Shown here: positions 2,451 to 18,692 of the stretch, piece by piece | Numbering within the stretch: position 1 is the first letter of the stretch | Layout of the letters: every line of letters starts with the position of its first letter | Origin: Saccharofermentans sp. | Lineage (GTDB): Bacteria > Bacillota > Clostridia > Saccharofermentanales > Saccharofermentanaceae | Length of the DNA stretch: 37,688 nt | Assembly (NCBI GenBank): GCA_024684815.1 | Contig: JAIKWL010000002.1 | Coordinates: 1 to 37,688, forward strand | Reading direction: 5' to 3' | Made by a program: the position numbers and the translations under genes | Notes under the pieces: model-generated | Told to the model about the DNA's origin: nothing | The model's input: only the letters and a program-made list of their open reading frames with translations | Database searches by the model: none

Positions 2451-2473
2451 AAAAAAGAGCCCGAAGGCTCTTT
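2451..2473 (-). terminator. Rho-independent terminator of tetR
   Basis: On the minus strand an 8-bp stem AAAGAGCC/GGCTCTTT closes a TTCG tetraloop and runs straight into a T-run. It overlaps the tetR stop codon (2472-2474). Confidence 0.92.
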
Positions 2474-3089
2474 ACTGCAATCCCATTATCTTTAACCATC
2501 CCGGCATGAAGAACTCCTGCACGGTATTGAGGTATTTCTCTATCAGCCGGTCATCAAAGGTGTGTATTACCGGTTCAAGGCAAGCCGTGAAATAAGCGGA
2601 CAGCAATATATGCAATTCATCGTCACTTATCTTTTTTACCGGAAGGCCTTTCTGCTCCATATAGTCTATCGCCTTCATGAATTCATGCTGGTTTTCCTCC
2701 ACATAATTGTGGATGAAATTCTCATACCTCGTTCCTGCTGAACAGTTCATAAGGATCAGGAATTCTTCCCTGTGAGGAATGATGACGTCTTTTAAGAGAT
2801 CGATAAAAGTCTCACCGAACAGGATCTCTTTATCAGTCTTATCGCCTGTTAACTCATACTTCTTTGCAATATGATTCCTGTTCCAGCTTTTGATCTCTTC
2901 GATAAGAGGTTCGACAACGGAATCAAACATGGCTTCCTTATCGCGGTAATGGCGGTAAAGACCGGCGGAAGTCATGCCGGCTCTGGCTCCGATGCTCCTT
3001 ACGGATGCACCTTCGAATCCTTTCTCAAGGAATTCTTCTCTGATCGCTTTGTTAACCCTTATGTGACTTAAAGACTTGTCCCGTGGCAT
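2472..3089 (-). CDS. TetR/AcrR-family transcriptional regulator
   Basis: A 205-residue regulator with an N-terminal TetR helix-turn-helix (about residues 10-58; the recognition region contains MTSAGLYRHYRDKEAMF, typical of the family) and a divergent C-terminal ligand domain. I chose the ATG at 3089 because AGGTGA, six bases upstream, is a good ribosome binding site; a GTG at 3098 in the same frame would place its start inside that site. It has its own promoter with an iron-type palindrome in the spacer, and lies between two ABC transport operons, so it probably controls one or both. A half-site shared by 2413-2422 and 3101-3110 may be its operator. The ligand is unknown. Confidence 0.88.
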   Translation of the reverse strand: MPRDKSLSHIRVNKAIREEFLEKGFEGASVRSIGARAGMTSAGLYRHYRDKEAMFDSVVEPLIEEIKSWNRNHIAKKYELTGDKTDKEILFGETFIDLLKDVIIPHREEFLILMNCSAGTRYENFIHNYVEENQHEFMKAIDYMEQKGLPVKKISDDELHILLSAYFTACLEPVIHTFDDRLIEKYLNTVQEFFMPGWLKIMGLQ

Positions 3090-3100
3090 TGTTTTCACCT

Positions 3101-3125: not shown

Positions 3126-3154
3126 ATGTTAGCCACGGCTAACCAGTTTGTCAA
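3126..3154 (-). promoter_or_regulatory. tetR promoter with TTAGC-N4-GCTAA box in the spacer
   Basis: Read on the minus strand: -35 TTGACA (3154-3149), 17-base spacer, -10 TAACAT (3131-3126). The palindrome GTTAGCCACGGCTAAC (plus strand, 3128-3143) fills most of the spacer and enters the -10, a position where a bound repressor would block polymerase. The same box is found at the ECF, ABC-FtsX and feo promoters in this window. Confidence 0.8.
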
Positions 3155-3157: not shown

Positions 3158-3349
3158 TCAATTTTCATCAGTCTTAAGAATTTTGTAAAACACGATTCCT
3201 ATGATCAGAAGAACGATCCCTGCGGCCAGGCTCGTTATGGTAATCTGCGGCATCACACCTGCCTGAGGCAGATACAGTCCTCCGATGATCAGAAAGACGC
3301 TGATGATGATGGTGACGATCCCTAAGATCCTGCAAGCGTTCTTACTCAT
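3158..3349 (-). CDS. Small two-helix membrane protein
   Basis: A 63-residue protein with two hydrophobic segments (about residues 8-28 and 36-56) separated by a short polar turn, ending in a charged tail. I do not recognise a family. Its ATG overlaps the stop of the ABC gene 3346-5097 by four bases (ATGA), so it is the last gene of the five-gene ECF/ABC operon. That position and size suggest an accessory subunit or stabiliser of the transporter, but this is inference from context only. No terminator is visible after it, so read-through into tetR is possible. Confidence 0.75.
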   Translation of the reverse strand: MSKNACRILGIVTIIISVFLIIGGLYLPQAGVMPQITITSLAAGIVLLIIGIVFYKILKTDEN

Positions 3350-5097
3350 TTGGCACCGCCCTCCAGTTCTTCGTTCATATCCTTCTGGAGCAAAGCCATA
3401 CGCGAATACAGACCGTTCCTGTCCATAAGTTCATCATGCGTTCCTTCTTCGGCGATCTTTCCGTGATCGATCACAAGGATCTTGTCGGCACTTCTTATCG
3501 TGTTAAGTCTGTGAGCAATTACCAGAACAGTCTTATCACGGCAAAGCTCGGTCATGCCCTCTTTGATATAGCGTTCGTTATCCGCATCAATGCTTGCCGT
3601 TGCTTCATCCAGGATGATCACGGGAGCATCTTTGAGGATGCAGCGCGCTATGGAGATGCGCTGTGCCTCACCGCCGGATAAACTTGTACCACCCTCGCCT
3701 ACTATAGTGTCAAATCCATAAGGCAGCTGCATTATGAAATCATAGCAGCGGGCCTTTTTCGCAGCTTCGGTCACTTCCTCCAGTGTCGCGTCTTCCTTAC
3801 CCATTGCGATGTTGTTGAAAACAGTATCTTCAAAGAGATATACCTTCTGGAATACCATGCTTATGTTGCACATGAGCGTCTCCATCGGCATTTCCCTTAT
3901 GTTTGTACCTCGCAGGAGCACCTCTCCCCCGTTAACATCCCAGAAACGGGCAAGGAGATTTGCGATGGTAGTCTTTCCGCTTCCCGATTCGCCGACAAGA
4001 GCGATCATCTGATTCTTATCTGCTGTAAATGATATGCCCTTAAGTACTTCTTCATCTTCATATGAGAAAGTCACATCCCTGAACTCTATCTCGTGTGCAT
4101 AGTCCTTAAGCGGTTCCTTCCTGCCGTCAAGATACAGGGGTTTCTCGGCAAATACCGCGCCGATCTTATCCAATGCCACTTCCATTATCGACAGGCGCGC
4201 GCCCATCTGGAATACAGTCTTAAAGGGTGTGAAAAGATTCATAAGGAAAAGAAGAACACCTATAAAGTTAATGGCATCCATCCTCCCGGCCTGAAGAAGC
4301 CAGATCGCAGCAGCCAATATTCCGGCGATGCCGGCTGCGCAGATTATCTCCAGATTTCTTTCGTATGGTGCATATTCTCTTTCGAACCTGAGATTTGCTT
4401 CACGGCTTCTTCTAAAGCTGTCACGCAGACGCGTTGAACTCTCACCCGTAAGTCCGAAGCTTTTCGATACCGCCATACCTTCTGCATATTCGATAACAGA
4501 ACCTGTAAGATCTTCGACCGCCGCCTGTCTTCCTTCGGAATTGCGCGCGGCAGTCTTATTCATGGGAACGGAAAGGATCAGTATGACAATATCCGTAGCC
4601 AGCGTTACCGCACCGAGGAGCGGATCGAGGAAAAACATGAATAATGTCAGTACGAACTGGGCAAAGAATCCGCTTGCGATCTCCGCGAGCACGCTCATGC
4701 TGTTCTCTTCGACAAAAACCATGTCTTCCGTTAATATCGAACTGATGCGTCCTATGTTTTCATCAGTGAAATAACCCATCGGAAGTTTTCTTAAGTGTCG
4801 TGCAAATTCTATTCTCTTTTCCGCAAAGACTTTATAACCCGCCGAAGACTGGAGTCTGTCGGACATATGCCTGAAGAATGTTCCGAGAGCAAAACAGGCA
4901 AGGAGCATTCCGGCCATTAAGCAACACGTCATTACATCTGCCGTGCCGTCCATAAGAGCACGTATCATGAAGATTCCGGCCATGATGGGAGCATTCTGTG
5001 CAAACGCATTTAAGAACGAGAATATGTATGCAAGACGTATCCTTCTTGCATTTTTCTTATCACAGAAAACGAGGAGCTTATGCAATATGCGGATCAT
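3346..5097 (-). CDS. ABC half-transporter, partner of the 1080-residue ECF/ABC fusion
   Basis: A 583-residue exporter-fold half-transporter. The membrane domain covers about residues 20-300. The ATPase shows Walker A GESGSGKTT (369-377), Q417, LSGGE (473-477), catalytic E498 and switch H529, all intact. The gene overlaps the stop of the upstream fusion gene by four bases and its own stop overlaps the small membrane gene by four, so the three are translated in a coupled way. The most economical reading is a heterodimer with the exporter-fold half at the C-terminus of the fusion protein. Exporter-fold heterodimers that import siderophores (YbtPQ, IrtAB) are the precedent for uptake; export remains possible. 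Confidence 0.9.
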   Translation of the reverse strand: MIRILHKLLVFCDKKNARRIRLAYIFSFLNAFAQNAPIMAGIFMIRALMDGTADVMTCCLMAGMLLACFALGTFFRHMSDRLQSSAGYKVFAEKRIEFARHLRKLPMGYFTDENIGRISSILTEDMVFVEENSMSVLAEIASGFFAQFVLTLFMFFLDPLLGAVTLATDIVILILSVPMNKTAARNSEGRQAAVEDLTGSVIEYAEGMAVSKSFGLTGESSTRLRDSFRRSREANLRFEREYAPYERNLEIICAAGIAGILAAAIWLLQAGRMDAINFIGVLLFLMNLFTPFKTVFQMGARLSIMEVALDKIGAVFAEKPLYLDGRKEPLKDYAHEIEFRDVTFSYEDEEVLKGISFTADKNQMIALVGESGSGKTTIANLLARFWDVNGGEVLLRGTNIREMPMETLMCNISMVFQKVYLFEDTVFNNIAMGKEDATLEEVTEAAKKARCYDFIMQLPYGFDTIVGEGGTSLSGGEAQRISIARCILKDAPVIILDEATASIDADNERYIKEGMTELCRDKTVLVIAHRLNTIRSADKILVIDHGKIAEEGTHDELMDRNGLYSRMALLQKDMNEELEGGAK

Positions 5098-8000
5098 CTG
5101 ACGGCACCGCCTTTCAGGATCCAGCGGTTGCTTTCTTCCGTCGCTTTCCAGAGCTTGCGGTACTCTTCACAGTCTTTTATGAGTTCACCGTGAGTTCCTT
5201 CAGATATGATCCTTCCTTTGCCGAGAACGATTATCTTATCAGCCTTCGCGATTGAACTGAGCTTGTGCGCGATTATGAGAACAGTCTTATCCTTTATGAT
5301 CTCCGCGATCGCATCGTTCATTTTCTTCTCATTCTCGGGATCGATGAATGCCGTGGCCTCATCAAGAACTATTACGGGTGCGTCTTTCAGAAGGACTCTC
5401 GCAAAGGCTATCCTCTGCTTCTGTCCGCCGGAGAGCTTGTTTCCGCAGGCGCCGGCCATTGTATCGTAACCGTTCTCGAAGCTTAAGATAAAGTCCTCAC
5501 AGCCGGCTCTTCTTGCCGCATCCTTTACTTCCTCATCAGTCGCACCGGGCTTGCCGATACGGATATTTTCCTTTATCGATTTATTGAACAGAAACAGTTC
5601 CTGTGACACATACGAGACCTGGTCTCCGAGTGTCGCCAAAGAAAGATCGCATATATCCTGTCCGCCGATCCTTATGCTTCCGGAATCAACGTCGTAATAA
5701 TGGGCTATAAGTCTTGCTATCGTACTCTTGCCGCTTCCAGACTCACCGACGAGTGCTGTCATCTGACCTTCTTTCGCCGTAAAGGAAATGCCTTTTATTA
5801 CTTCATCGCCCTTGTATGCAAACCGCACTTTGTCGAACGTGACGGAATGGCCGTTCCCTTTGAAAGGTTCCTCGCCGCTCTTTAATGCCGGGCGGTCCAG
5901 GGCCTTTTCTATCGACTGTATCTTATAGTTGATCCTGGGCATCGAACCGATAAGCGCAAGTGTATGTATAAGGAGCGGCCCCAGTGCATAGCTCAGGCAC
6001 AGTGCCAGGATATACCTTTCGAGAGTCAGATGTCCCAGTATTACCAGCAGACCGCCGAGCGGGAGCGAATACAAAGTGATGTTTGCAAAAAGGCTTCCGT
6101 ACAATGCCATCCAGGGCCAGCATACTTCATACCATGCAAGACCAAAGTCACGGTACTTATATACGGAATCTTCAAACCTCTCGCCTGACTCGTTGCTCCT
6201 GTTAAAGATCCTGACGACTTCCATGCCCGAGACAAATTCGATTATCGAGTTGTTCAGCCTCTTGGAAGAAGCGAAATAATACCCCATCTTATCCATTCCG
6301 ACAGTGTACATCTGCCTGGAAGCAGCATACCCGAGTGCAAGTACGACAACCGAACACAGCGCCATCTGCCAGTCGGCCGCAATAAGGATAAGCAGGATCA
6401 CGATCCCTACGAAGATATTCGAAAAACCTTCCGGAATGACGTGTGCGAGCATGAGTTCTACGGATTCGATATCATCGTTGAAAAGCTTTTTGACTGTTCC
6501 TATGCCCATGTCATGGATATTTCCGATGGGCTGCCCGTCGAGTTTATCCTGAAGACTAATGCGGATGTTCTCAAGAGTGTGATAGGCCGCACGGTGACTT
6601 AACTGAAGACCGAATGTATATGCGGCAGCATAAAGGATCCCGGCTCCGAGGATAAGACCTATGTCAGGCAAAGTATTATTCAGCGTCAGTGTGCTTCCGT
6701 TCAAAAAGCGCGTAAGCAGATCGTAGATTCCCGCATACGGGACTGCACCGAAAAATGCTCCGAGTATCATGAATATAACTGCAAAAACAACATATTTTTT
6801 CCACTTTCCGGTATATTTCAGAACCCTTCCGAACATGCCGTAATTCTTGCGCACTTTGGAAGTATTCTCATCACTTTCCGTCATGAAATATCCTCTTATG
6901 CGCTGAACACCGTCATCGTTAAGCGGATAGAATCCCATGACACGGCCGTTCTCTATATGCAGTATGTGAGTGCAGCAGCGGAGTATAAGCTCGGGATCAT
7001 GGGTAATGATCACCGAAGTAATATCACTTCTCATCTCATTAAGAATCTCGCCGAAGCGTTCCATGCCCCTTCTGTCGAGTCCCGACGTGGGCTCATCGTA
7101 GAATATGATTTCTTTTCCGGCACAAAGTGCGGAAGCTATTGCTACACGTTGTTTCTGGCCACCCGAAAGAGATGACGGATGTCTTTCCTCAACACCTTTG
7201 AGGCCAAGCTTATCCAGTATTTCCAAAGCTCTTTCACGTTCAACGGAAGCATTAAGCATTACTTCTTCGATAACGCTGTCAGAAAAGAGCTGACGGTTTA
7301 CATCCTGCATAACCATAAAACTCTTACCGGAGCGTTCTTTTTCGCTTAAATACCGTCCCTTGAACGCAATGCTTCCGTCAGAAGTACCGACTCCGCACAG
7401 TGCCTCGGTCATGGTCGACTTACCGCTTCCGTTATCGCCAATTATCGCCACAACGGAATGTTCAGGAAGACGCAGTCTGTCGATATCAAGTATCTGATTT
7501 CCGCCGCGCGTACAGTTAAGATCAATTGCTTCGATGACAGGCTGTCCGCCATTACCAAAATCACTGTTTGCACGATTCTTTTCAAGCTTATTTAGATCGG
7601 TACACCTTAAACCAAGCGAAGAAAGTTCGTTATCCGTTAATTTAGCTAATTCCTGTGAGGTATAAGCAGCAGTTATAATACCGTCTTCAAGATAGATGAA
7701 TCTGTCTGCCAGATCCATAAGATAATAAAGGCGGTGTTCTGATATTACGATCGTCTTGCCTGACTCTTTTATCTTTTTCAGTATATCGTGCAGACGGTGA
7801 ATTGCCTTACGGTCGAGATTAGATGAGGGCTCATCGAGCACATAGACATCAGGCTGTGCAGTATAGACACTTCCGCACGCTACCTGCTGCTTTTCTCCTC
7901 CTGAAAGTTCAAAGATATTTCTGTCCATGAGAGCCTTAAGCTTCATGTCCTTTTCAGTCTGAACGAGTCTTTTATTTATCTCTTCTCTGCTCATTCCCTG

Positions 8001-8336
8001 GTTTTCACATCCGAAAACAAGCTCACCTGTCGTATCAATATTGAAGAACTGGCTCTTTGGATTTTGGAAGACACTTCCTACTGTCTTACTCGTTTCTGAG
8101 AGCTCGGAAGTAGACACACATGTATCTCCGACCCAGACCTCTCCTTCCAACTCTCCCGGATAAAAATGCGGTGCGAGTCCATTTATGAGTCTCGTAAGCG
8201 TTGTCTTGCCGCACCCTGAAGATCCGCACAATACAACAACCTCGCCGTCTTTTATGGTCAGATTAATGTTATCGACACCTTCGCCGGTGCCCTGTTCTCC
8301 GCCATAATGGAAACTGCAATTCTCAAATCTGATCAT
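5094..8336 (-). CDS. Triple-ATPase fusion: tandem ECF ATPase (EcfA-EcfA') plus exporter-fold ABC half-transporter
   Basis: 1080 residues with three ATPase domains and one membrane domain. Domain 1 (about 1-240): Walker A GSSGCGKTT (38-46), LSGGE (144-148), Walker B LDEP (167-170), H201. Domain 2 (about 265-480): GDNGSGKST (300-308), LSGGQ (390-394), E415, H446. Both resemble the paired ATPases of energy-coupling-factor importers. A linker leads to a six-helix exporter-type membrane domain (about 515-800) and a third ATPase with GESGSGKST (864-872), LSGGQ (968-972), E993 and H1024. No frameshift or stop separates the parts. It sits directly downstream of the T subunit (ATGA overlap) and upstream of another half-transporter (ATGA overlap), so it can supply the ATPases for the ECF module and one half of an exporter-fold heterodimer at once. 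A single polypeptide of this layout is unusual. Confidence 0.9.
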   Translation of the reverse strand: MIRFENCSFHYGGEQGTGEGVDNINLTIKDGEVVVLCGSSGCGKTTLTRLINGLAPHFYPGELEGEVWVGDTCVSTSELSETSKTVGSVFQNPKSQFFNIDTTGELVFGCENQGMSREEINKRLVQTEKDMKLKALMDRNIFELSGGEKQQVACGSVYTAQPDVYVLDEPSSNLDRKAIHRLHDILKKIKESGKTIVISEHRLYYLMDLADRFIYLEDGIITAAYTSQELAKLTDNELSSLGLRCTDLNKLEKNRANSDFGNGGQPVIEAIDLNCTRGGNQILDIDRLRLPEHSVVAIIGDNGSGKSTMTEALCGVGTSDGSIAFKGRYLSEKERSGKSFMVMQDVNRQLFSDSVIEEVMLNASVERERALEILDKLGLKGVEERHPSSLSGGQKQRVAIASALCAGKEIIFYDEPTSGLDRRGMERFGEILNEMRSDITSVIITHDPELILRCCTHILHIENGRVMGFYPLNDDGVQRIRGYFMTESDENTSKVRKNYGMFGRVLKYTGKWKKYVVFAVIFMILGAFFGAVPYAGIYDLLTRFLNGSTLTLNNTLPDIGLILGAGILYAAAYTFGLQLSHRAAYHTLENIRISLQDKLDGQPIGNIHDMGIGTVKKLFNDDIESVELMLAHVIPEGFSNIFVGIVILLILIAADWQMALCSVVVLALGYAASRQMYTVGMDKMGYYFASSKRLNNSIIEFVSGMEVVRIFNRSNESGERFEDSVYKYRDFGLAWYEVCWPWMALYGSLFANITLYSLPLGGLLVILGHLTLERYILALCLSYALGPLLIHTLALIGSMPRINYKIQSIEKALDRPALKSGEEPFKGNGHSVTFDKVRFAYKGDEVIKGISFTAKEGQMTALVGESGSGKSTIARLIAHYYDVDSGSIRIGGQDICDLSLATLGDQVSYVSQELFLFNKSIKENIRIGKPGATDEEVKDAARRAGCEDFILSFENGYDTMAGACGNKLSGGQKQRIAFARVLLKDAPVIVLDEATAFIDPENEKKMNDAIAEIIKDKTVLIIAHKLSSIAKADKIIVLGKGRIISEGTHGELIKDCEEYRKLWKATEESNRWILKGGAVR

Positions 8337-9085
8337 ACGCCACCCGCTTTGATCTTCTGGGCTATTACAGCAGCAAAAGCAAACAATGAAATGAACAAGA
8401 CTATCAGCAGATAATCTATAACTCGAAGCTTAACTTCCTCATAAGAAGTTCTTTTAACTTCTATATCCATTCCTCTTGCCATCGTTGCGGCAGCAAGTTC
8501 TTCCATGACACTCATAGTCGAAAACAACATCGGTATCAGAACATATTCGATCGTTCTCCACGGATGAGTGATTATCTGAACCGGACTTAAGGATATGCCT
8601 CTGAAAGCCATTGCTTTACGGATACCATTCCATTCATCCGTAACGGTTGGTAGAAATCTGAAAAACACTGCGACAGGCACAACTGCCTTAACGGGAATGT
8701 GCATTGCCTGAAAGGCGGACAAGAAGTGACTTATCCTTGTCGTCTTAACGATCAGATAGATGCTCATCAGCGTCGGGAATGCAAACATGAAACTCGTAGT
8801 AATGAGCGTTATTACCATTACCACTACTTCAGGCGCCCCTTCAGAACTGCCTAGAACAGCACGGATAAACAGAACTACTCCCAGAGCTATTGCCGCCTTG
8901 AGAGCAGTCAAAGGCTTTCCGCACAGTGCAAACAGAATACAGAGCAACACTGAGTACATTGCGATACCAATGTCACTGTAACTGCTTACACATACGAGAC
9001 TGCTTGTAACGAATATAAGGACTTTGGTTCTCGGATCTACTTTTATAAGTCCTTTTATATCCTCGCCGTAAAAAGTCAGGTCCAT
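8333..9085 (-). CDS. ecfT: ECF transporter T component (EcfT-like membrane coupling subunit)
   Basis: A 250-residue membrane protein of the energy-coupling-factor T-subunit type. Hydrophobic segments lie in the first 130 residues and near 220-242; the conserved coupling helices end in AFRG (160-163) and ARG (203-205), the A-x-R-G type motifs that contact the ATPases. In ECF importers the T subunit passes ATP-driven movement to the substrate-binding S subunit. The S-subunit gene is 16 bases upstream, and the downstream fusion gene starts inside this stop codon, giving a complete S-T-A-A' set. No substrate specificity can be read from this subunit. Confidence 0.88.
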   Translation of the reverse strand: MDLTFYGEDIKGLIKVDPRTKVLIFVTSSLVCVSSYSDIGIAMYSVLLCILFALCGKPLTALKAAIALGVVLFIRAVLGSSEGAPEVVVMVITLITTSFMFAFPTLMSIYLIVKTTRISHFLSAFQAMHIPVKAVVPVAVFFRFLPTVTDEWNGIRKAMAFRGISLSPVQIITHPWRTIEYVLIPMLFSTMSVMEELAAATMARGMDIEVKRTSYEEVKLRVIDYLLIVLFISLFAFAAVIAQKIKAGGV

Positions 9086-9101
9086 ACAATATTATGTGAA
9101 C

Positions 9102-9716
9102 TCAGACAATTCCGGCCTTTTCAAAGTGCTTCTTTATGAGTTTTGATGCGATAAGGACACCAATTCCAGCGCCTGCAACAGCAAGTCCCATCTGAGCAAA
9201 AGGCATCCAGCTTGTTGTGAGCGCAGCTACGCCGTTTGCATAGCTTTCGCCATAGTAATCTGTTGCCATTGCCATAAATGAATCTCTGTTTAAATACAGG
9301 TTAGAGAACGGGCATACCATATTCAGATTGAATACAAGATATGAAATAAGGAATAATTTCTTGGATTTATACTTACCTATCAGCAATACTATTTCAGCAA
9401 GAACTGCAACACCAATTGCCATGAACATTCCGGGAAGATAACCGGATGATGCAGTTACAGCAAATAAGATACCGAGAATCAGAGCAGCTCCGAATTTGTG
9501 AACCTTGAGAACACACAATTCATATATAGTCGCACATACAATTCCGACGAACAAAGGCGTGATCAGATAAAGCACCGGTATCGTTCCGCAGACCATGACA
9601 ATGAGGAGCATTACCACAACATAGATAGCTGCAAATGCGCCTGCAAAGATCAGATCTTTTACCCTCATTTTCTTTCCGTCTTTAGTTGTCGTATTAGATA
9701 TTTCTTTTTTAGCCAT
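9102..9716 (-). CDS. ECF transporter S component, MptD (Trep_Strep) family
   Basis: A 204-residue integral membrane protein with about five or six hydrophobic segments after a short charged N-terminus. It resembles the MptD/Trep_Strep family of putative S components (recognised from sequence, not searched). S components bind the substrate, so this protein sets the specificity of the ECF module; the family's ligand has not been firmly established as far as I know. First gene of a five-gene operon, with a strong promoter and two adjacent iron-type palindromes 31-60 bases before the ATG. The ribosome binding site is modest (AGAAGA). The regulatory sites argue for a metal-related ligand; this is inference. 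Confidence 0.82.
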   Translation of the reverse strand: MAKKEISNTTTKDGKKMRVKDLIFAGAFAAIYVVVMLLIVMVCGTIPVLYLITPLFVGIVCATIYELCVLKVHKFGAALILGILFAVTASSGYLPGMFMAIGVAVLAEIVLLIGKYKSKKLFLISYLVFNLNMVCPFSNLYLNRDSFMAMATDYYGESYANGVAALTTSWMPFAQMGLAVAGAGIGVLIASKLIKKHFEKAGIV

Positions 9717-9746: not shown

Positions 9747-9776
9747 GTTAGCCACGGCTAATTACCCTCGGCTAAC
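9747..9776. promoter_or_regulatory. Two adjacent TTAGC-type boxes at the ECF operon promoter
   Basis: The first box, GTTAGCCACGGCTAAT (9747-9762), is nearly identical to the box at tetR (3128-3143). The second, ATTACCCTCGGCTAAC (9761-9776), has one good and one weaker half and shares two bases with the first. Together they cover the region just downstream of the -10, so a bound repressor would block initiation. Adjacent paired sites are common for DtxR/IdeR-type repressors. Confidence 0.78.
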
Positions 9777-9873: not shown

Positions 9874-10785
9874 TCAGGAATTTAACCATTCGATTATCTC
9901 TTTTTCCGTATTGTCGAAGTAAGAGATATTCAAGTCTTTGTATTTACCGAAAGTCTTATACATTAAGCCGATGAGCGGGATCATACGGTAAAGTTTTTTC
10001 TCCCTTTCCCTGTTAGGCATCAAGCCGTTAAGATGGCTTCCGTGAGGATATACGATCACCTTAACATCCTTGGAATAACCTTTTTCTTTAAGATCTTTTT
10101 CGATCAGTCTTACCGAATACTCAGAAGGCCATGCCTCATCCTCATCACCTGCAATCAGGAGAATCCTGGCATCGGTTTGCTCGACACTGAGTCTCGCCTT
10201 AAGAGCTGCGGCTTCATTTTTATACGCATCATGATATGCGATCCACATGCCGGTAACTTTGCAGGCTGAGTCCGGATGACGATAGTATTTTGAAGCTTTG
10301 ATCCTAGAGAAATCAGCTTTAACGAATGGAATATCCTCGCCTTTCCAGGTAGCCACGCTCCTGCCGGTCATGGTCTTCTTATCCTTCAATGTCCCTTCGA
10401 AAGGAACATGCGTGGGACTGACCAATATCAGATTCTCGAAGCCCCCGATATACTGTGCTGCCAGCACGGCGAAGATCGAACCCATTGACTGTCCGTATAT
10501 GCTTATGTGATCTATCTTTTTCTTTTCGCGGAGATATTCTATGGCAGGAACAAACATATCGACAGGAATGCTGTTTGGCGAATCAGGAAGGCCTTCTGCT
10601 CCGAATAATGAAACAGACAAACCGGTAATACCATAATCTGCAAAACGTTCTGCAAACTTGATGCCGGGCAGTATCGACTGCTCGCCGCCCATGACGACAA
10701 TTACAGCCTTCCAGCTTCCGCTGTCCGGTTCGGCAAGATGTCCCGTAAACCCGTGTTCCTTATAATTGAAGTCTTCGTGTCTCAT
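9874..10785 (-). CDS. Alpha/beta hydrolase, BAAT/acyl-CoA thioesterase-like
   Basis: A 303-residue serine hydrolase. The nucleophile elbow is GQSMG with S100; the likely acid is D216 in GDEDEAWPS, and the likely base is H251 in YPHGSHLN. The acid and His contexts resemble the C-terminal domain of bile-acid-CoA:amino-acid N-acyltransferase/acyl-CoA thioesterase proteins, which cleave or transfer acyl groups. No signal peptide, so probably cytoplasmic. Last gene of the nine-gene operon, four bases after the previous stop and with no clear ribosome binding site, so it probably depends on coupling. The true substrate, a thioester or ester, cannot be named. Confidence 0.85.
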   Translation of the reverse strand: MRHEDFNYKEHGFTGHLAEPDSGSWKAVIVVMGGEQSILPGIKFAERFADYGITGLSVSLFGAEGLPDSPNSIPVDMFVPAIEYLREKKKIDHISIYGQSMGSIFAVLAAQYIGGFENLILVSPTHVPFEGTLKDKKTMTGRSVATWKGEDIPFVKADFSRIKASKYYRHPDSACKVTGMWIAYHDAYKNEAAALKARLSVEQTDARILLIAGDEDEAWPSEYSVRLIEKDLKEKGYSKDVKVIVYPHGSHLNGLMPNREREKKLYRMIPLIGLMYKTFGKYKDLNISYFDNTEKEIIEWLNS

Positions 10786-10789
10786 AAGC

Positions 10790-11287
10790 TTATAAAAATG
10801 AAAAAATAAATGCTCCGATAAGGCAGCATATAGGGATGACGATACACTGTCTTATCTGCTGCTTGCGGTTATATCCGAACTGCTTCCATCCGATGCAGTT
10901 TTTCGTCTCGGGGAAATAGTGCTGGAAGAATTGCGTCTTTGTCAGGAGGATATAATCCAGACAAACGATATCGAATACTTTGACAGATGCACCGATAATG
11001 AAGAAGCGCAGAAAAAACTGCCAAAATGTGTATCCGTTCTTTATTCCGTCAATCCCGCCGTATATAAACAGACCCAGAAAAAAATTACAGAATCCGATAA
11101 GGATTATCCAACCAACAACTCTTTTGAAAGACATCGGAAGACTTTCAAGTCTGGGCTTGAGGCTTGCCTGAACATCAACGGGGAAATTCCTTGCAAGAAG
11201 GCTTGTCGGCATCGTGATGGTAAGCCCCCAAATAGCGAGGAACAATGAAACACACCCGATAAGTGACAGGATCAACGTAAGGATCAT
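10790..11287 (-). CDS. Four-helix membrane protein, unknown function
   Basis: A 165-residue protein with four hydrophobic segments (about residues 3-25, 58-80, 88-112 and 148-165). The loop after the third holds KTQFFQHYFPETKNCIGWKQ, a fairly polar stretch that could be a functional face. I do not recognise a family. Good ribosome binding site (AAGGAG) before the ATG, and short gaps to both neighbours (12 and 4 bases) place it firmly in the operon with a methyltransferase and a hydrolase. Confidence 0.78.
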   Translation of the reverse strand: MILTLILSLIGCVSLFLAIWGLTITMPTSLLARNFPVDVQASLKPRLESLPMSFKRVVGWIILIGFCNFFLGLFIYGGIDGIKNGYTFWQFFLRFFIIGASVKVFDIVCLDYILLTKTQFFQHYFPETKNCIGWKQFGYNRKQQIRQCIVIPICCLIGAFIFSFL

Positions 11288-11299
11288 AAGCGCAACTCC

Positions 11300-12100
11300 T
11301 TATCTGATGCCATAGATCAGTCCGGCATCTTTGATCATCCACGGTGCTGTTACAAAATCAGGAACAAAATACTGCTCCTCAATATTCGGAATGTAATGGA
11401 TCTCGCTGACAAGCCCGCTTCTTTTCAGCTCTTCGCAAAACTCGTTCATGTCCCCGTATAGAGACTTCTGGCCGAACATGTCCTGGAATGAGAAGGATCC
11501 GCCTTTCTTTACAACACGAAGCGCCTCTTTAACTACTAATCTTTTGTCAGAAACAGAACGAACTTCATGGAATACAAAGTTACTTACTGCACCGTCAAAA
11601 GTCTCATCCGCAAAGTCCAACTTTGCAGCATCTCCCTTTTGGAAAAGTGCTCTGTCTGAAACGCCTTCGGCTACAGCATTCTTCTCACACTGTTCCTTGG
11701 CATAACTCCATTCGGCACCCCAGAAATCGATGCCGGTAACATGAATGTTGGGAAAAGTCTTCAACATACGGTTCGTAAGTGCGGCCGCACCGCATCCGAT
11801 ATCAATTATGCGGCCATCTTTTTCTTTATCCCATATAAAATGATCGACAAGAAACTGATGGATGGCACCCATCACACCGCCGCCGTTAAAATCAAAAAGG
11901 ATCCTGCAACGCTGCATGTAAATTGTCATTGCAAGTGCAGCAAAAGATATAACTGACAAAATGATGCCCGGTATTTTTGTCTTAAGAAATACCAGAAGGA
12001 TAACTGATATTACAGCCATTACAAATGTCGCTGCCCATTGCATCCTGATCATGGCGGCAGGCACCCAGTTGCCGTAATCAGCATTCTTGTTCATTTCCAT
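11300..12100 (-). CDS. Membrane-anchored class I SAM methyltransferase
   Basis: 266 residues. Two hydrophobic helices near the N-terminus (about 22-40 and 43-62) are followed by a Rossmann methyltransferase domain: motif I IIDIGCGAA (98-106), the acidic end of strand 2 near GIDFWG (123-128), GDAAKLDF (156-163), and a post-motif region LRVVKKGGSF. The enzyme should use S-adenosylmethionine to methylate a small molecule or lipid at the membrane. The start is supported by AGGAGG. It follows the ICMT/hydrolase fusion by four bases, so two different methyl-transfer modules are made together. Substrate unknown; a hydrophobic or lipid-like acceptor is a reasonable guess because of the anchor. Confidence 0.87.
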   Translation of the reverse strand: MEMNKNADYGNWVPAAMIRMQWAATFVMAVISVILLVFLKTKIPGIILSVISFAALAMTIYMQRCRILFDFNGGGVMGAIHQFLVDHFIWDKEKDGRIIDIGCGAAALTNRMLKTFPNIHVTGIDFWGAEWSYAKEQCEKNAVAEGVSDRALFQKGDAAKLDFADETFDGAVSNFVFHEVRSVSDKRLVVKEALRVVKKGGSFSFQDMFGQKSLYGDMNEFCEELKRSGLVSEIHYIPNIEEQYFVPDFVTAPWMIKDAGLIYGIR

Positions 12101-12104
12101 GTTT

Positions 12105-13508
12105 TCATCCTCCTATATATGCGAGCATTCTCTGATATCCCGGCATTGCATCGTCGACGAGCGGAATGCATGCATAAGCATGATAGAGACCTTCTTCGAT
12201 CTCCATCGTCACATGTACTCCGTACGATTCCAGTCTTTCCCTGATCGGATCAGCCGCTGCAGTAAATACTTCATCTGCTCCAAAACTCAGGTAAACATCT
12301 TTTAATCCCGTGTAGTTGCCGAGCTGTAACGATTCCATATAATCAGCGACCTTTTTGCCGCCTGTCATGCCCTCCCAAACGGAAAGGGTTGCTTTCTGAC
12401 TCATTATCACGTCGGTCTTATCCAGAAGGTCTGCCTTGCGCTTCTCTTCTTCGCTTATAAGCAGTGAACCGGGAGAACCGGCATATACCTTGCCGGGCAT
12501 TGGTAATCCCTCTCCCCTGTCATTGATGTATGAGATCATTCCGAGCGCGAGATTTGCGCCGCTCGATCCGCCCAGAAAGTATATGTTTTCTGGCTTGTAT
12601 CTGCGAAGAAGCGATCTGTAAAGCTCATAGACCGTCTCATAGACATCTGTCAATGTGTTGCCTGTATGGATAAGCGGATAAAACGGAAGGACAAAATCGA
12701 TGTTGAGTTTTTTTGAAAGTGACAGTACTTCTTTTGTCTGAGAAGGTGACGGATATTTGAGCATGCCTCCTCCGATGAGATAGACACACACCTTTCCCGG
12801 GTGTTCCGGATGACGGTACCAGAGCATTGTCGATCCGTTTACGGACTCCGTCTCAGTCTCAACCTTGCTGTCATTGAGTTTTGGAATAACCACGCCCTTA
12901 TATTTCTTTGCAAAGAGCTTTTTTGCTTTCTCAGGCGGCAGTTCCATAATCCTCTGTATCCTGAAGAGCTTACACAATCCGAGGATAAATGCATATTTGA
13001 CAGACTTCTTCATTATCCTTTTGAGCGGGATAAGCCTGTTGACCATTACCTTATAAGCAGCATATTCCGCACCGTAAAGATCAAGGAGCCATTTCTCTTC
13101 GGTATTCTTCAAAACAACCGTCAGGATCAGCCATTGAACAGGCAGCAGTATGAGGAGCCACAGGTTGTGCCATAAGAGCAAAAGACCTATGTTGATGAAC
13201 CACACTCCGACATACATGGGGTTTCTGACCCATGCATAGACGCCGCCCGTCTGAAGCTTATTGTTCTCGATGTGTTCGTCCATCTTTGAGCCGAGCGCGC
13301 CCATATACCAGATAAAGATCCCGAGAGGGATGAAGATGATTCCTAATACTCTGAATATCCATGCCCAGACACCTTCAAGAATGCCTGAACTTAAGACATT
13401 TACCGACATGATGAGTCCCGCTAAGGATAGTAAGGAAATGCCGCTTATAAGATACGGACCTATTCCGAATAACGGAAGTTTCTGACCTTCTTTGGTGTAG
13501 TTTTTCAT
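12105..13508 (-). CDS. Fusion of ICMT-like membrane methyltransferase and alpha/beta hydrolase
   Basis: 467 residues in two parts. The N-terminal part (about 1-165) has several membrane helices and the isoprenylcysteine carboxyl methyltransferase/phospholipid methyltransferase signature: VYAWVRNPMYVG (90-101) and EEKWLLDLYGAEYAAYK (137-153). The C-terminal part (about 190-467) is an HSL/esterase-type hydrolase with an oxyanion loop GGG (246-248), nucleophile S315 in GGSSG, acid D412 in GADE and base H443 in LYHAY. The His-Gly-Gly motif of classical HSL enzymes is replaced by GGG. Joining a carboxyl- or lipid-methylating enzyme to an esterase suggests paired formation and cleavage of an ester, or successive steps on one membrane substrate; this is inference. 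One-base gap to the upstream gene. Confidence 0.85.
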   Translation of the reverse strand: MKNYTKEGQKLPLFGIGPYLISGISLLSLAGLIMSVNVLSSGILEGVWAWIFRVLGIIFIPLGIFIWYMGALGSKMDEHIENNKLQTGGVYAWVRNPMYVGVWFINIGLLLLWHNLWLLILLPVQWLILTVVLKNTEEKWLLDLYGAEYAAYKVMVNRLIPLKRIMKKSVKYAFILGLCKLFRIQRIMELPPEKAKKLFAKKYKGVVIPKLNDSKVETETESVNGSTMLWYRHPEHPGKVCVYLIGGGMLKYPSPSQTKEVLSLSKKLNIDFVLPFYPLIHTGNTLTDVYETVYELYRSLLRRYKPENIYFLGGSSGANLALGMISYINDRGEGLPMPGKVYAGSPGSLLISEEEKRKADLLDKTDVIMSQKATLSVWEGMTGGKKVADYMESLQLGNYTGLKDVYLSFGADEVFTAAADPIRERLESYGVHVTMEIEEGLYHAYACIPLVDDAMPGYQRMLAYIGG

Positions 13509-13509
13509 G

Positions 13510-14223
13510 TCACTTCTTCGCCTTTGCTTTCTTCATCATTATGAGGAGACCTGAGTATGTCCAGAGCCCTCCGATGCTGATCCAGCCGGTACCAATCGCA
13601 TTGGCTGCTTCACTGTTTCCGAAAAACCTGGTTACAACTACAATGACTATTCCTGATGCGATCGAGAAGATCCAGCACCACTTCGGGTAAGGTGTATAAC
13701 CCTTTACAAAAGCGATGATCTGCGTAACAGTCGTAATCATGAAAAATACAAAGAAGATCAGTGTTACAGGGACAAGGAAATAAAGCGCGAACTTCACAGT
13801 GCCTTCAGAAGATGCATTGGGATTGATCCTGTGAACAGCATTCAGGTGATAGACTGATGCGCAGCAAACTACATGACAAAAGCTGCCGAATGCAAGCATT
13901 CCGAGAATTCCGCTCCTGTAAATGTGTGCAAGCTTTTCGTTTGTATTCGCAATCAGTCTGTATATACCGAAATAGCACAGACACTCCACAGGTATCCCGA
14001 TAAGTCCCAGAACTGCCGATCTGAATATTCTGTCATCTGATACAGTAAGATATCGGGAAAAATACTGATCCATTCCGGACAGGGAATCATCAACTACTCC
14101 CCAGCCTAAGATCAGGTCGCCGACAAGTCCCATAAGAGCAGCCACAATGCCGATCTTGAACAGGTGTGTTATACGATCCCAATCAAGTTCTTTACTGATC
14201 CCTATGTCATTATAACTGCTCAT
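13510..14223 (-). CDS. Multi-pass membrane protein, DUF6796-like
   Basis: 237 residues with about six hydrophobic segments, a short N-terminal cytoplasmic-looking region and a lysine-rich C-terminus (KKAKAKK). The sequence recalls the uncharacterised DUF6796 family (from memory, not searched). AAAGGA precedes the ATG. It is 15 bases after the previous gene and one base before the ICMT/hydrolase fusion, so it is co-translated with a methyl-transfer/esterase system. A helix-embedded region CHVVCCASVYH holds Cys and His that could bind metal or be a structural feature; no function is assigned. Confidence 0.78.
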   Translation of the reverse strand: MSSYNDIGISKELDWDRITHLFKIGIVAALMGLVGDLILGWGVVDDSLSGMDQYFSRYLTVSDDRIFRSAVLGLIGIPVECLCYFGIYRLIANTNEKLAHIYRSGILGMLAFGSFCHVVCCASVYHLNAVHRINPNASSEGTVKFALYFLVPVTLIFFVFFMITTVTQIIAFVKGYTPYPKWCWIFSIASGIVIVVVTRFFGNSEAANAIGTGWISIGGLWTYSGLLIMMKKAKAKK

Positions 14224-14238: not shown

Positions 14239-14595
14239 TTATCCGAAAACCAAATACAAAAGATTAACAATTCCTGCAGTGATAAGTCCTGCCAGAGGAC
14301 AGCATGTAAGAGGCCATATGATAAGATGCTCCGGGAGCGCTGCTTTCATCCATTCTTTAAGTTCCCAGGCCTTGCAGTCCTCGGCGCCTTTGATAAAGCC
14401 TCTCATCTTCTTTGTAACCGCACGGAGCAGACAGTCTAATATAAGAAGGTCCCCGAAGTTTACGAAGAGCATCTCGATATAACCTGTCCAGAACAGCTCC
14501 TTAAATCCTGTAACACCTGAAAAATAAGTGCTTACACCAAAATAAACAAAAACTGCAAGATAAATAGCGATCAGGATCACCCTGCTTATTATCAT
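14239..14595 (-). CDS. Three-helix membrane protein, unknown function
   Basis: 118 residues with hydrophobic segments at about 3-25, 33-58 and 92-116 and an amphipathic middle containing KKMRGFIKGAEDCKAWELKE. No family recognised. The ATG overlaps the stop of the HMA-domain gene by four bases (ATGA), so it is coupled to a metal-binding protein gene. A role in the same metal- or lipid-related process is inferred from position only. Confidence 0.72.
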   Translation of the reverse strand: MIISRVILIAIYLAVFVYFGVSTYFSGVTGFKELFWTGYIEMLFVNFGDLLILDCLLRAVTKKMRGFIKGAEDCKAWELKEWMKAALPEHLIIWPLTCCPLAGLITAGIVNLLYLVFG

Positions 14596-14840
14596 CCGAA
14601 CAAACCTTTCTTAACATAAGGCTCAGATTCGATCCCGAGGAAATCATAACCTGTGTCTTTTATTGCCTTTTCAAGAACTGCGCCGACTACAGCTTCGTCG
14701 CTGATAAATGTTGCTTCTTTCTTAACTCTGGAAGCCTTTACTTTTTTAGCTGAAGGGACTGCTTTTCTTATAGCATCGCTTACATGAGCTTCGCACATTC
14801 CGCACATCATTCCGTCGATCTTAACTGTTGTCCTGTACAT
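14592..14840 (-). CDS. Heavy-metal-associated (HMA) domain protein
   Basis: 82 residues forming one HMA (Atx1-like) fold with the metal motif MMCGMC (C13 and C16) after the first strand, as in copper chaperones and P-type ATPase metal-binding domains. Such proteins bind soft metals, typically Cu(I), through the two cysteines. Finding it inside an operon behind an iron-type box is unexpected: it may traffic a metal or act as a thiol partner of the neighbouring transporter. Four-base gap from the permease gene and a good AGGGAG site. It ends in a basic tail (VKKGLFG). Family assignment is firm; the metal is not determined. Confidence 0.88.
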   Translation of the reverse strand: MYRTTVKIDGMMCGMCEAHVSDAIRKAVPSAKKVKASRVKKEATFISDEAVVGAVLEKAIKDTGYDFLGIESEPYVKKGLFG

Positions 14841-14844
14841 AGAA

Positions 14845-17800
14845 TCACTCCCTGTTCTTTAACACTTCTGCCGGTGTTATCTTTTTGAGCCTGTTTGTTA
14901 GTATCAGATTGATAATGAGATAAAGGCCAATGACGACAGCAAAAATCATCAGATACATCGCTGGCGTATAGGTCGGTTTTATTCCCACTCCGACATTGCT
15001 CACCAGATATCTCGGATATATATAATCCATTATCAGCTTGCACAAAGGTATTACGATAAGAGCACCTATCGCAACGATATAGAAATTCCCGTCAAGATAC
15101 ATCTTGCGGACTTCACGTTTCTTGAAGCCGAAGATCTTTACGAGAGATATGTTAAACGACGATCTGTCGATCATCATCTTGATCATGAGATACATAACGA
15201 CAACGAAGACCACAGATGCTGCGACAGACATCGTGATTATCATCGACCCCATCATGTCAACATATACACCGGCTGATCTTTCGATCTCGGATTTAGATAC
15301 TGTGGAATACAGCCTTCCGGTGTCGATATCAAGTTCGTGATCGGAAAAAACGACATTGAAATAATCGTCATCTTCTCCAAACATATCCCTGCATCTGTCG
15401 ATATCCATAAACATCATTAAAGATGCCGAATAATCGAATATCCTTGCAACCCTGAAAGCATATAATCTGTCACCGTTTTCACTCTCAACAGTAAACTCGT
15501 CGCCGACTGAAAGATTATATTTATTTGCGACTGCAGAACTTAAAACAACATCCAAATCATTATCAGGTAATACTCCGGTATCAAAGAACGGATTATCATT
15601 TGTAATTCCCATGAGAGTGATATCGAATGTATAGCCGTAGATCTCTTTTTTCATTCCCTCGGCAACAGCCTCAAAGCCGCCTTCCGGAACTTCTTCAGTC
15701 GGATACTTGTAACTGTACATATACTCATACTTTGTCTGGCTGACATAGTAGTCATTGACATTTTTGCAGTACACATATGTGTTGAGAGCCATAAGAGCAA
15801 CAAGGAGACTCATGAACATGCCGAAGATAACTGTCAATCCGGCTCTCATTTCTCGAAGCATCTGCCTTAATCTGAACATGCCTATAAACTTGAGGCCCTT
15901 GATCTTCAATTCCTTGCCACGGACAACTTTTTTCTCGTTCCTTAAAAGTGCCAGAGGGGTTTTCTTAAGTTTCTTGCGGATAACAAGCAAATTGACGATA
16001 AAAGCAGTCACCGGAGGAATAACAAGCCCGTAGATAATAATAAACGGTGTCACTTCAATCTCGAGTGCAGGCATCGAATAATACATCAGTGTATCGTCTA
16101 ACTGCACCGGTATTCCCACAGGTGTCAAAACAGCAATCAGTGTTCCTATTACACCCGAAACAAATGTAACTATTACCGGCACGGCAACATAACTCAACGT
16201 TAGAGTCCTTCTCTTCATTCCCATCGAATACAGCGCTCCTATGACAGAACTTTCCTGATCGATCATGTGTACGATAAAGACTGATATAACATACGCAAAA
16301 AGCATTACAAGCAGTATTCCGAAGATTATGCTCGCCGAATAATTGATCTGAACATCATCAGCAGCTGAATCGATCCTGGGATTTTCCGCATGATCAAGGA
16401 ATAACATCAGATTAGAGGTTTTAATGTTAAAGACTTCATCAATCAGATCGTTGGCTTCATCAGAAAACTCGTTTACACCGTCAGCCAGTTCTCTTGTGCC
16501 ATCAGCAAGTTCAGATGCACCTTCATTTATCTCTTTTGAACCGTCATATAATTCATCAATGCCTTCAGCAAAATCGTCAGCACCGTCGCGAAGTTTGGAT
16601 GTACCTTCACGAAGAGCAGATGCTCCTTCTCTTAATGCGGAATTGTTTGTTTTAAGCGTCTTTACAGCACTATACAGCTGTAATGCGCCGTCACGGAGTG
16701 ATGCAGCTCCTGTATTGACTCCGGAGATGCCGGATTTTATCTGAGTATATCCGTCTGAAAGTCCCTTCACAGGATCCGCAAACCCTCCTGCAACAGCTGC
16801 AGTATACGGATCATCACTTTGTGTCATGGTGCTGACAGTCCCTGAAAGCTTATCAATACCTTCGCCGTACATGGCGGCTCCACTGTCCAGATCTGAGGTG
16901 CCTGAAGCAAGTGTTTCTGCTCCATCAGACAGAGAAGACATACCTGAAGCAACCGCACTGACACCGTCTGTATAAGCCTTTATACCCTTTTCCAATTCGG
17001 CAGCACCATCATCAAGTGCTGCAATCCCGTCCGTAAGATCCGGAAGTGCATCATGCAGTTCGGTCATGCCGTCATGGAATTCACTTATTCCGTCACAGAG
17101 TTCCCCTGCTCCGTCAGCCAATTCATTGGCACCGTCTTTAAGTTCATCTATACCTTCCAGAAGGTCGTCCTTGCGGCCGGTCATCCTATCCCAGTATTCC
17201 CTGAAATATTCATCGTCAATATCATTAATATCAAATTCAATATCCTCAAGAATACTCTTCAGATCTTCTTTGCTCATCGCACCGTTAAGAAGATATGCAT
17301 AATAATATTCTTCAGAAGATAAGGAATAACCTGAAGCATAAAGATCATCATATTCTTCCGGAGTTACAAAAAGAAGCCCGAAATATCTGCTGTCAACTAC
17401 AGAATCAGACATCTTCCTGATAACGGTATTGTAATCCGGAACAGCGCCTATCCCGCATACAGTCAATTCTTTATCACCGAGCCTGACCTTGTCACCGATG
17501 ACGACACCATTTACTTCAGAAAAACGCCTCTCGATAACCGCTTCGTTATCAGAAGCAGGAAGAGTTCCTTCAATAAGCGAGATTTTGTTGATGTTTTCCC
17601 TAACCTTAAAGACCCTCAACACCTGATCTTCGTTCAGCGCATAATCGGCATAAAACATTTTCTCAACCGATACACCGTTATCCGTGATATTTCTGAGTTC
17701 ATCTGAACGCAGCGGAACAAATACCGAGAACTCGCCGTCTTCACGGCACAGTTCCCTGTCCCTTATCTCAGTGTAATCGATAACAGTTTTCGCTGCTCCC

Positions 17801-17913: not shown

Positions 17914-17914
17914 A

Positions 17915-18628: not shown

Positions 18629-18639
18629 ATACACCTCTA

Positions 18640-18661
18640 CATATGAACAACTATTCATATG
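18640..18661. promoter_or_regulatory. Perfect 8-bp inverted repeat in the leader of the nine-gene operon
   Basis: Arms CATATGAA (18640-18647) and TTCATATG (18654-18661) flank six bases. It begins three bases after the -10 element and ends shortly before the ribosome binding site. It could be an operator for another regulator or an mRNA hairpin. No T-run follows. Confidence 0.5.
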
Positions 18662-18663
18662 TT

Positions 18664-18692
18664 ATTTTAAGTTAGCAGTTGCTAACTGTAAA
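18664..18692 (-). promoter_or_regulatory. Promoter of the nine-gene operon with TTAGC-N4-GCTAA box
   Basis: On the minus strand -35 TTTACA (18692-18687), 17 bases, -10 TAAAAT (18669-18664). The perfect 7-bp-arm palindrome GTTAGCAGTTGCTAAC (18671-18686) fills the spacer. The layout matches the feo and tetR promoters, which argues for control by the same repressor. Confidence 0.83.

Follow-up and report, generated by a model that had tools for sequence, protein, structure and literature searches.

In a 37,688-nucleotide stretch of Saccharofermentans sp. DNA (contig JAIKWL010000002.1, hereafter the window), the tandem ATPases of an ECF transporter and an exporter-fold ABC half-transporter were found to be encoded as a single 1080-residue protein. 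At least 30 distinct single-ORF fusions of this kind were identified in Firmicutes, Coriobacteriia and Treponema (three phyla), and trees resolved them into two lineages. The preliminary description had placed a complete ECF set and two exporter-fold halves in one operon, and its gene set, gene order and coordinates proved correct. The host is a gut bacterium. The features, all on the minus strand, are as follows.

2472 to 3098, minus strand: TetR-family regulator (PF00440, 2.1e-12)
3129 to 3142, minus strand: palindrome TTAGCCGTGGCTAA, candidate operator before the TetR gene
3158 to 3349, minus strand: small membrane protein ORF, 63 aa, its start overlapping the TMb stop (ATGA)
3346 to 5097, minus strand: partner half-transporter TMb, 583 aa (Pfam ABC_membrane and ABC_tran)
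5094 to 8336, minus strand: fusion of EcfA-EcfA' with a half-transporter (TMD-NBD), 1080 aa, single open frame
5097 to 6836, minus strand: half-transporter TMa with its NBD, YbtP/IrtA-like, fusion residues 501-1080
6837 to 6911, minus strand: linker, fusion residues 476-500 (bounds set by us)
6897 to 8336, minus strand: EcfA-EcfA' tandem ATPases (AA'), fusion residues 1-480 (bound set by us)
8333 to 9085, minus strand: EcfT-type transmembrane coupling protein, 250 aa (PF02361 CbiQ, 9e-16, Pfam)
9102 to 9716, minus strand: S component of the MptD/Trep_Strep family, 204 aa (PF09605, 4.1e-43, Pfam)
9748 to 9775, minus strand: same palindrome TTAGCCGTGGCTAA, one exact copy and one with two mismatches, between a promoter-like site and the S gene

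ECF transporters are made up of S, T, A and A'. The operon holds S, T and AA' complete, and differs from ECF transporters in that A and A' form one chain that is fused to an exporter-fold half. The S component scored 100 bits against TIGR02185 (NCBIfam, 'MptD family putative ECF transporter S component'; cut-off 76.45), and its AlphaFold model (pLDDT 84.8) had the ECF S component 5edl as top PDB fold match (probability 1.00, TM 0.52, Foldseek E only 0.02); a search of PDB sequences gave no match up to E 1. By TIGR02185 and this fold match, it belongs with the ECF S components. The T component matched the solved EcfT proteins 4huq/4hzu (phmmer, E about 2e-5) and fell far under the cut-off of the CbiQ equivalog TIGR02454; its sequence assigns it to the CbiQ/EcfT family. 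Searched alone, AA' exceeded the cbiO subfamily cut-off (230 bits against 211.8), and its top matches, TIGR04521/04520, were nevertheless under their cut-offs (TIGR04521, 273.6 bits against 330), so that the sequence indicates two ATPases of the ECF kind with intact motifs and, with S and T, a complete ECF set.

TMa and TMb are encoded adjacently, each with ABC_membrane and ABC_tran, and their sequences indicate two paired exporter-fold halves whose ATPase motifs are intact and which would form a heterodimer. Among solved half-transporters, TMa was nearest to YbtP (289 bits) and IrtA (274), followed by YbtQ (229) and Sav1866 (218); profile scores were 474 for YbtP, 440 for YbtQ, 418 for IrtA and 387 for Sav1866, and fold matches were found with YbtP and IrtA chains (target TM 0.81-0.84). 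By sequence, TMa is of the YbtP/IrtA kind. TMb gave near-equal scores with Sav1866 (448 bits), YbtQ (440) and MsbA (432), which are not diagnostic of type. The word 'exporter' in the preliminary description may mislead, as TMa is, among solved half-transporters, nearest the siderophore importers YbtP and IrtA. Both YbtPQ and IrtAB are pairs of the same type IV fold as TMa/TMb; they are described without ECF ATPases, IrtA bearing a siderophore interaction domain instead (PMC10246721, PMC8386196, as far as their available text goes). In the window, each of the three NBDs of the fusion, like the NBD of TMb, had Walker A, signature and Walker B motifs, in agreement with the three intact ATPase sites in the fusion, four with TMb, claimed earlier. 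Across the 30 fusions, loose patterns detected three full motif sets in 26, with one pattern missing in each of L036 (shortened), L030, L037 and L041.

The join itself lies in one open frame (5094-8336, minus strand), as the preliminary description had claimed, and residues 480-515, where it had pointed to a possible stop or frameshift, contained neither. Orthologues at 93% and 89% identity in other assemblies had an identical frame length of 1080 aa, and nine of the 30 fusion records were not titled MAG, which together rule out an assembly artefact or frameshift. Pfam matched ABC_tran three times and ABC_membrane once (517-782) in the protein, and its structure model (pLDDT 84.6, pTM 0.73) showed the linker as a helix (474-485) followed by a loop (486-500). 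G476, F484 and R496 in the linker, and Y470, P471 and L472 just ahead of it, were invariant in all 27 lineage-1 rows. In the sister clade, unfused AA' proteins (L054, L058) terminated in a stretch matching the beginning of the linker motif seen in the fusions. T and the fusion, and the fusion and TMb, overlapped by 4 bases each in the window.

The count of 30 is a lower bound, because the genome scan finds close relatives only (best 80 of 118); no lineage-2 fusion came from it. Loci at contig ends (L046, L052, L071) were left out of the count; L052 fell within the fused clade and L046 reads on into TMa. S and T lay upstream of the fusion in 28 of the 30 loci, and TMb followed within 1.3 kb in all 29 readable ones; in two Treponema fused loci S and T were not adjacent. 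A single fused clade was rejected for TMa (AU p=0.0024). Before this test, 16 of 91 rows, including seven fusions, were taken out manually because they were closely related to others, and the p-value is not blind since the two lineages were first seen in a larger tree. For AA' (30 fused and 78 unfused rows, leaving out the duplicates or sub-stretches L001-L004, L009, L010, L117, L118, L122 and L128), one fused clade was not rejected (AU p=0.309). Two candidates for another type of fusion were discarded. Open frame 1583 of G355 proved to be an independent half-transporter of 588 aa, with a stop codon lying 15 codons ahead of its start, and the AA' and TMa of Eggerthella sinensis (L068) are read in different frames.

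The ECF and exporter-fold parts also occurred together elsewhere, contrary to the possibility raised earlier that they never do. An exporter-fold pair lay near the S-family ECF set in 14 of 19 sampled loci (two of them fusions; L113 and four S matches under the cut-off dropped) and in 11 of 15 when the own genome is excluded, in several gene orders, and 16 unfused S-T-AA'-TM-TM operons were found. In Ruminococcus flavefaciens Y1 (L070), an NRPS gene, a thiazolinyl imide reductase gene (TIGR01761, over cut-off) and two more ORFs preceded TMa-TMb-S-T-AA' on the same strand, and NRPS genes also preceded the unfused sets of L065 and L074. No NRPS-like gene was seen by eye among the ORFs >650 aa of the fused loci, no condensation domain was found in the own genome (76% complete), and the ten window neighbours searched with Pfam included neither NRPS nor thiazolinyl imide reductase. 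Genes named by eye as AraC-like lay near 23 of 51 unfused versus 2 of 30 fused sets, and MATE-like ones near 19 of 51 versus 0 of 30. Beyond the core, clustering of neighbours (ORFs >=90 aa, within 9 kb) yielded no gene cluster in >5 of the 30 fused loci.

Of 25 readable lineage-1 loci, 20 had a conserved gene for a membrane protein of about 61 aa after TMb. A profile search detected it in no unfused locus examined; the matches comprised 20 loci, every one with a lineage-1 fusion, and six of these had served as seeds of the profile. The protein had no Pfam family over cut-off. The 63-aa ORF of the window lies within the range of the preliminary description (from 3158), where it was unnamed. 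A TetR relative was located within 7 kb of the fusion in 12 of 30 fused loci. The palindrome had 7 matches at 5 places in the window (<=2 mismatches) against 0.13 expected, and one exact copy was present in L021. A promoter-like site (9806-9778) lies upstream of the S gene, such sites being no commoner there than in shuffles; promoter and terminator scans found 12 and 6 against 14.6 and 6.3 expected. The window contained no Rfam family at gathering score and no tRNA, and therefore these gave no hint of the substrate. Pfam also identified acyl hydrolase and methyltransferase genes near the operon.

Related combinations are known from separate proteins. In S. equi, deletion of eqbHIJ lowered equibactin-dependent 55Fe accumulation and abolished the small-colony phenotype, which persisted after deletion of eqbKL, and the authors suggested that EqbKL may export the product (PMC3672683, available text). 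The equibactin locus likewise carries an importer, EqbHIJ, needed for most equibactin-dependent iron accumulation, and the YbtPQ-like EqbKL; unlike the fusion, it encodes separate proteins and has its own NRPS cluster (PMC3672683, same text). EqbHIJ is called a ferric-siderophore-like importer (permeases and ATPase) in that text (PMC3672683), and from this description we infer a probable ECF S/T/A set; in the window, an ECF set does adjoin a YbtPQ-like pair. An ECF importer is reported in the related S. lugdunensis cluster (PMC12709192). In island 023_CTn1 of C. difficile RT023, a cluster resembling the equibactin one and including thiazolinyl imide reductase is accompanied by an Ecf protein and by ABC ATPases, listed as individual genes unlike the fusion (PMC6814731, available text). 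The predicted operon mptABCDEF of M. avium ssp. paratuberculosis, which lies in an island mostly of metal-metabolism genes, is said to code for two putative ABC transporters, although qRT-PCR suggested that mptE and mptF do not belong to the same operon; the available text mentions no fusion, and by this description the operon may contain ECF and exporter-fold parts (PMC4132290). The S-family name presumably derives from MptD. The preliminary description knew of no described complex of this kind: we likewise found no description of the fusion in open PMC papers, but published equibactin-type clusters probably already hold both sets in one locus (PMC3672683, in its available part, and PMC12709192).

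We tentatively prefer, at somewhat less than even chances, to read the operon as one composite metal-chelate transporter for import and recycling, with substrate, direction and assembly conditional. The substrate would be a siderophore-like metallophore, perhaps taken from neighbours. Loss of a stop codon in an S-T-AA'-TMa-TMb operon would have created the fusion, and, with AA' and TMa in one frame, each ECF module would be bound to a single TMa/TMb pair. The S component would take up the loaded chelate, the AA'T motor would release it inside, and, after removal of the metal, the tethered pair would move the freed chelator back out. The small membrane protein may be an accessory subunit, and the TetR protein may control the operon through the shared palindrome. 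This reading is favoured by the retention of the fusion in 30 loci of three phyla and in two lineages, the six of 27 lineage-1 genes without a start codon in the linker region, the frequent ECF/exporter-fold pairing, the YbtP/IrtA kinship, the NRPS and thiazolinyl imide reductase genes beside unfused relatives, the eqb deletions (PMC3672683, available text) and the unfused sister AA' ending in the first part of the linker motif. Against it count the Treponema loci without adjacent S and T, the AA' test, the lack of NRPS and condensation domains noted for the fused loci and the own genome, the undiagnostic TMb and a possible internal start (below). A narrower version, a single machine with four ATPase sites, in which the ECF module and the type IV heterodimer are tethered 1:1 with a dedicated small membrane subunit, one ligand passes between the two paths (entry of the loaded chelate being coupled to return of the emptied chelator) and the join arose twice, appears doubtful to us; a physical four-site complex and a substrate hand-off are presumed in it.

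Of the alternatives, two importers in one complex come closest, though we think them unlikely: S/T/AA' and the YbtPQ/IrtAB-like pair would import the same metal chelate, in parallel or sequentially by hand-off. That the solved relatives of TMa in sequence and fold, YbtP and IrtA, are importers speaks for this rather than for import with re-export; the iron-toxicity phenotype left by eqbKL deletion together with the suggested export (PMC3672683, available text), and a TMb that is not specially YbtQ-like, argue against it.

Less probable still are two independent transporters, the shared chain serving just for equal expression, or the chains being partly separate, so that the tether has no transport role. 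Consistent with this are the 16 unfused operons, the full-length match in the own genome only among 398 sampled phylum genomes, and an SD-like stretch (AAGAGG in the window) ahead of the ATG at codon 485, likewise present in L021 and L038, from which an internal start could possibly yield some separate TMa in these three. However, the codon-485 column was not conserved as a start among lineage-1 genes, and six of the 27 had no start codon anywhere in the linker region 476-505. Lineage-1 identity was 48% in the linker, compared with 56% in the TMD and 37% in the A-A' spacer, and the same join in two lineages and a small ORF found with the fusion only also argue against independence.

Another amphipathic substrate (vitamin, lipid or antibiotic), with the exporter-fold pair as a resistance or detoxification pump, is improbable: no substrate is known to us for the S family, TetR regulation and the acyl hydrolase and methyltransferase genes would suit many small molecules, and no NRPS was seen near fused loci, but thiazolinyl imide reductase and NRPS genes adjoin unfused relatives and TMa is kin to YbtP/IrtA.

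ECF importers are classed as type III and exporter-fold ABC transporters as type IV (PMC8386196, available text), and in both fusion lineages one of each is united in a single polypeptide. One protein here links machines that in other bacteria are distinct, though frequently neighbours at a locus, which argues that the ECF and YbtPQ-like sets so often found together share a ligand and perhaps are in contact. The fused form also reveals a small membrane protein without a Pfam family that is tied to it. Because both machines are in one chain, the fusion offers a direct handle on the equibactin question, namely the role of the YbtPQ-like half when another set already imports.

The operon and the genes that follow it lie on the minus strand of the window, listed here in transcription order.

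9716-9102, -: S, the MptD-type ECF S component, first gene
9085-8333, -: T, the EcfT-type protein, after S
8336-5094, -: AA'::TMa fusion (1080 aa) of the tandem EcfA-EcfA' ATPases (AA') with an exporter-fold half-transporter (TMa), after T
5097-3346, -: partner half-transporter TMb, after the fusion
3349-3158, -: membrane-protein ORF, 63 aa, after TMb
3098-2472, -: TetR gene, after the 63-aa ORF
2377-614 and 621 to window edge, -: second half-transporter pair, after the TetR gene

Pfam and NCBIfam returned the same assignments for the operon parts as the preliminary description. A solved ECF S component was the sole high-probability match of the S model (probability 1.00, TM 0.52, E 0.02), and solved EcfT proteins resembled T. 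The parts, the joint frame, the ATPase motifs and the conserved gene order were directly observed, the motifs being intact in the window and in 26/30 fusions by loose patterns.

The results revealed that the fusion is real and conserved. In the same genome, contig C54 carries a second full-length fusion (40% identity), C57 a complete unfused set (halves, S, T, AA') and C52 an ECF-only S-T-AA' set. Among 59 relatives' genomes (own included), eight matched at E 1e-150 and five held full-length fusions, at six loci within the same genus. A scan of named genomes retained the best 80 of 118 relatives (77 distinct loci); a single ORF >950 aa with AA' and TMa was found in 26 of the 77, and 3 more ran into a contig edge. 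Together with the window, C54, L011 and L012, the 26 give at least 30 distinct fusions, carried by rumen and gut Firmicutes MAGs, Butyrivibrio hungatei and LB2008, Clostridiales NK3B98, Atopobium/Lancefieldella, an Eggerthellaceae MAG, a Spirochaetales MAG, Treponema bryantii, T. putidum and T. vincentii (shortened in the last). S and T stood directly upstream in 28/30 (exceptions, T. vincentii and T. putidum), and TMb downstream in all 29 readable loci. The fusion is rare: of 398 phylum genomes sampled, with a cut-off of 1e-200 and two candidates scored in each, only its own gave a full-length match. In T. vincentii OMZ 806 (L036, 2312-16286) the fusion ORF is N-terminally shorter (1030 aa, first Walker A outside the ORF), an unrelated 367-aa ORF separates it from TMb, and ~6.5 kb upstream there are S and T genes but no AA'; this locus is perhaps decaying.

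Co-occurrence was assessed with the S family as query, because a fusion-based search would bias it. Across 79 class genomes (own included), 20 places exceeded the cut-off, one at a contig end. A half-transporter pair lay within 2 kb of the ECF set at 14/19 loci (one pair on the opposite strand), or 11/15 outside the own genome; L098, L100, L101, L111 and C52 had no nearby pair. The control, the own genome's fifth CbiQ place (C59), overlapped no S-family place, and no half-transporter was found there among the own-genome matches listed. ECF sets and exporter-fold pairs thus belong together. Several additional half-transporter pairs sit together on own-genome contig C36. Nearly identical unfused sets occur in Peptoniphilus, Anaerococcus, Parvimonas, Criibacterium and Streptococcus pseudoporcinus (L061-L065, L067, L069, L072), and a second such group in Fenollaria, Peptoniphilus and genome G037 (L081-L083, L102). 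Both suggest recent spread, perhaps via mobile elements; recombinase-like genes (by eye) adjoin some of these sets.

In the AA' tree, 27 fusions (lineage 1) and the contig-cut L052 formed one starred clade, with the other three (C54, L011, L012; lineage 2) outside it; constraining all fusions to one clade was not rejected (AU p=0.309). In TMa trees, lineage 1 was a single clade and lineage 2 adjoined unfused TMa of S. pseudoporcinus, Anaerococcus octavius, Criibacterium and G082; a single clade of all fusions, a group seen before testing, was rejected (lnL 327 lower, AU p=0.0024). Alternatively, fusion may have happened once, with the TM half exchanged later. Around the linker, lineage-1 fusions share the motif YPL...G.......F...........R, which lineage-2 linkers do not resemble (by eye). 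Since AA' of the unfused sister-clade loci L054 and L058 terminate in the first part of this motif, and 16 unfused S-T-AA'-TM-TM operons were found, stop-codon loss in such an operon would be the simplest origin of the fusion.

In three loci (the window, L021 and L038) the ATG at residue 485 has an SD-like stretch ahead of it, which may allow a separate TMa to be made as well. Residues 476-505 hold no start codon in 6/27 lineage-1 genes (L025, L026, L030, L036, L044, L045), making an intra-linker start unavailable in them. Lineage-1 loci also encode, at or across the TMb stop, a small protein of ~61 aa in which two hydrophobic stretches were noted by eye. Six members served to build a profile, which matched 20 loci, the six seeds among them and each one a lineage-1 fusion; the gene was absent in 5/27 (L039, L040, L042, L044, L045) and its site unreadable in two (L025, L030). 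No match appeared in the unfused loci compared (E 0.01); the comparison is of lineage 1 with unfused loci, lineage-2 stretches ending at or near the site. Pfam gave no family at its cut-off.

Against solved half-transporters, the TMa profile ranked YbtP (474 bits), YbtQ (440) and IrtA (418) above Sav1866 (387), and window TMa alone gave YbtP 289, IrtA 274, YbtQ 229 and Sav1866 218. Chain 6p6i_A is presumably YbtP, its partner being called YbtQ in 8vsi. Two-half proteins such as P-glycoprotein scored higher, at least partly because both halves sum. Half-transporters among the 50 fold matches listed for the fusion model were YbtPQ and IrtAB chains only (target TM 0.81-0.84); TMb scores did not discriminate. 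The first half of the window's second pair is YbtP-like too (YbtP 335 bits vs MsbA 244). L021 has the same second tandem.

Exact copies of the palindrome TTAGCCGTGGCTAA stand ahead of both TetR (3129-3142) and S (9748-9761), and a copy with 2 mismatches occupies 9762-9775; the window holds 7 matches at 5 places vs 0.13 expected. We infer TetR control of the operon. The own genome has a single copy of the 16-base form, and among 129 loci the exact 14 bases are present only in L021 and in two loci that are sub-stretches of the window, so the candidate operator is not widely conserved. Related palindromes TTAGCAGTTGCTAA and TTAGCGGTTGCTAA (18672-18685 and 22038-22051), one just upstream of ABC-FtsX genes (18658) and one ~550 bases upstream of feoB, perhaps mark a wider TetR-type regulon. 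The stretch 14592-21483 (-), with an HMA heavy-metal protein, FtsX-ABC genes and FeoB, is a metal-flavoured neighbourhood. Beside the operon, 9874-14223 (-) encodes a BAAT-like acyl hydrolase, a small membrane protein, a methyltransferase, a PEMT-alpha/beta-hydrolase fusion and DUF6796; single members have relatives in the vicinity of some other fused loci.

In Ruminococcus flavefaciens Y1 (L070), an NRPS, a thiazolinyl imide reductase (TIGR01761, 204 bits vs cut-off 188.8) and two ORFs (494 and 362 aa) precede TMa-TMb-S-T-AA' on the same strand, and NRPS genes lie upstream of such sets in Anaerococcus degeneri (L065) and L074. These unfused loci recall equibactin-type clusters, as described in excerpts of PMC3672683, PMC6814731 and PMC12709192. 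No NRPS-like gene was seen by eye near fused loci, and condensation domains were found neither in the own genome nor in T. putidum; matches in L. rimae (1, weak), T. bryantii (4) and B. hungatei (3) were elsewhere or unplaced. For this reason, our guess is that the fusion handles foreign or unknown chelates.

Pieces of the co-occurrence of ECF sets and exporter pairs are already in print; the fusion itself was not found described among open PMC papers. Excerpts of PMC9742538 and PMC4810606 mention MptD incidentally; those of PMC4132290 concern mptABCDEF, and those of PMC10246721 and PMC8386196 the siderophore importers YbtPQ and IrtAB. S, T, AA'::TMa and TMb would form one complex, with a metal chelate as its probable substrate. 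The ECF module would import the chelate and the tethered pair would return the chelator; the S. equi genetics in the excerpt of PMC3672683 weakly favours such recycling over dual import.
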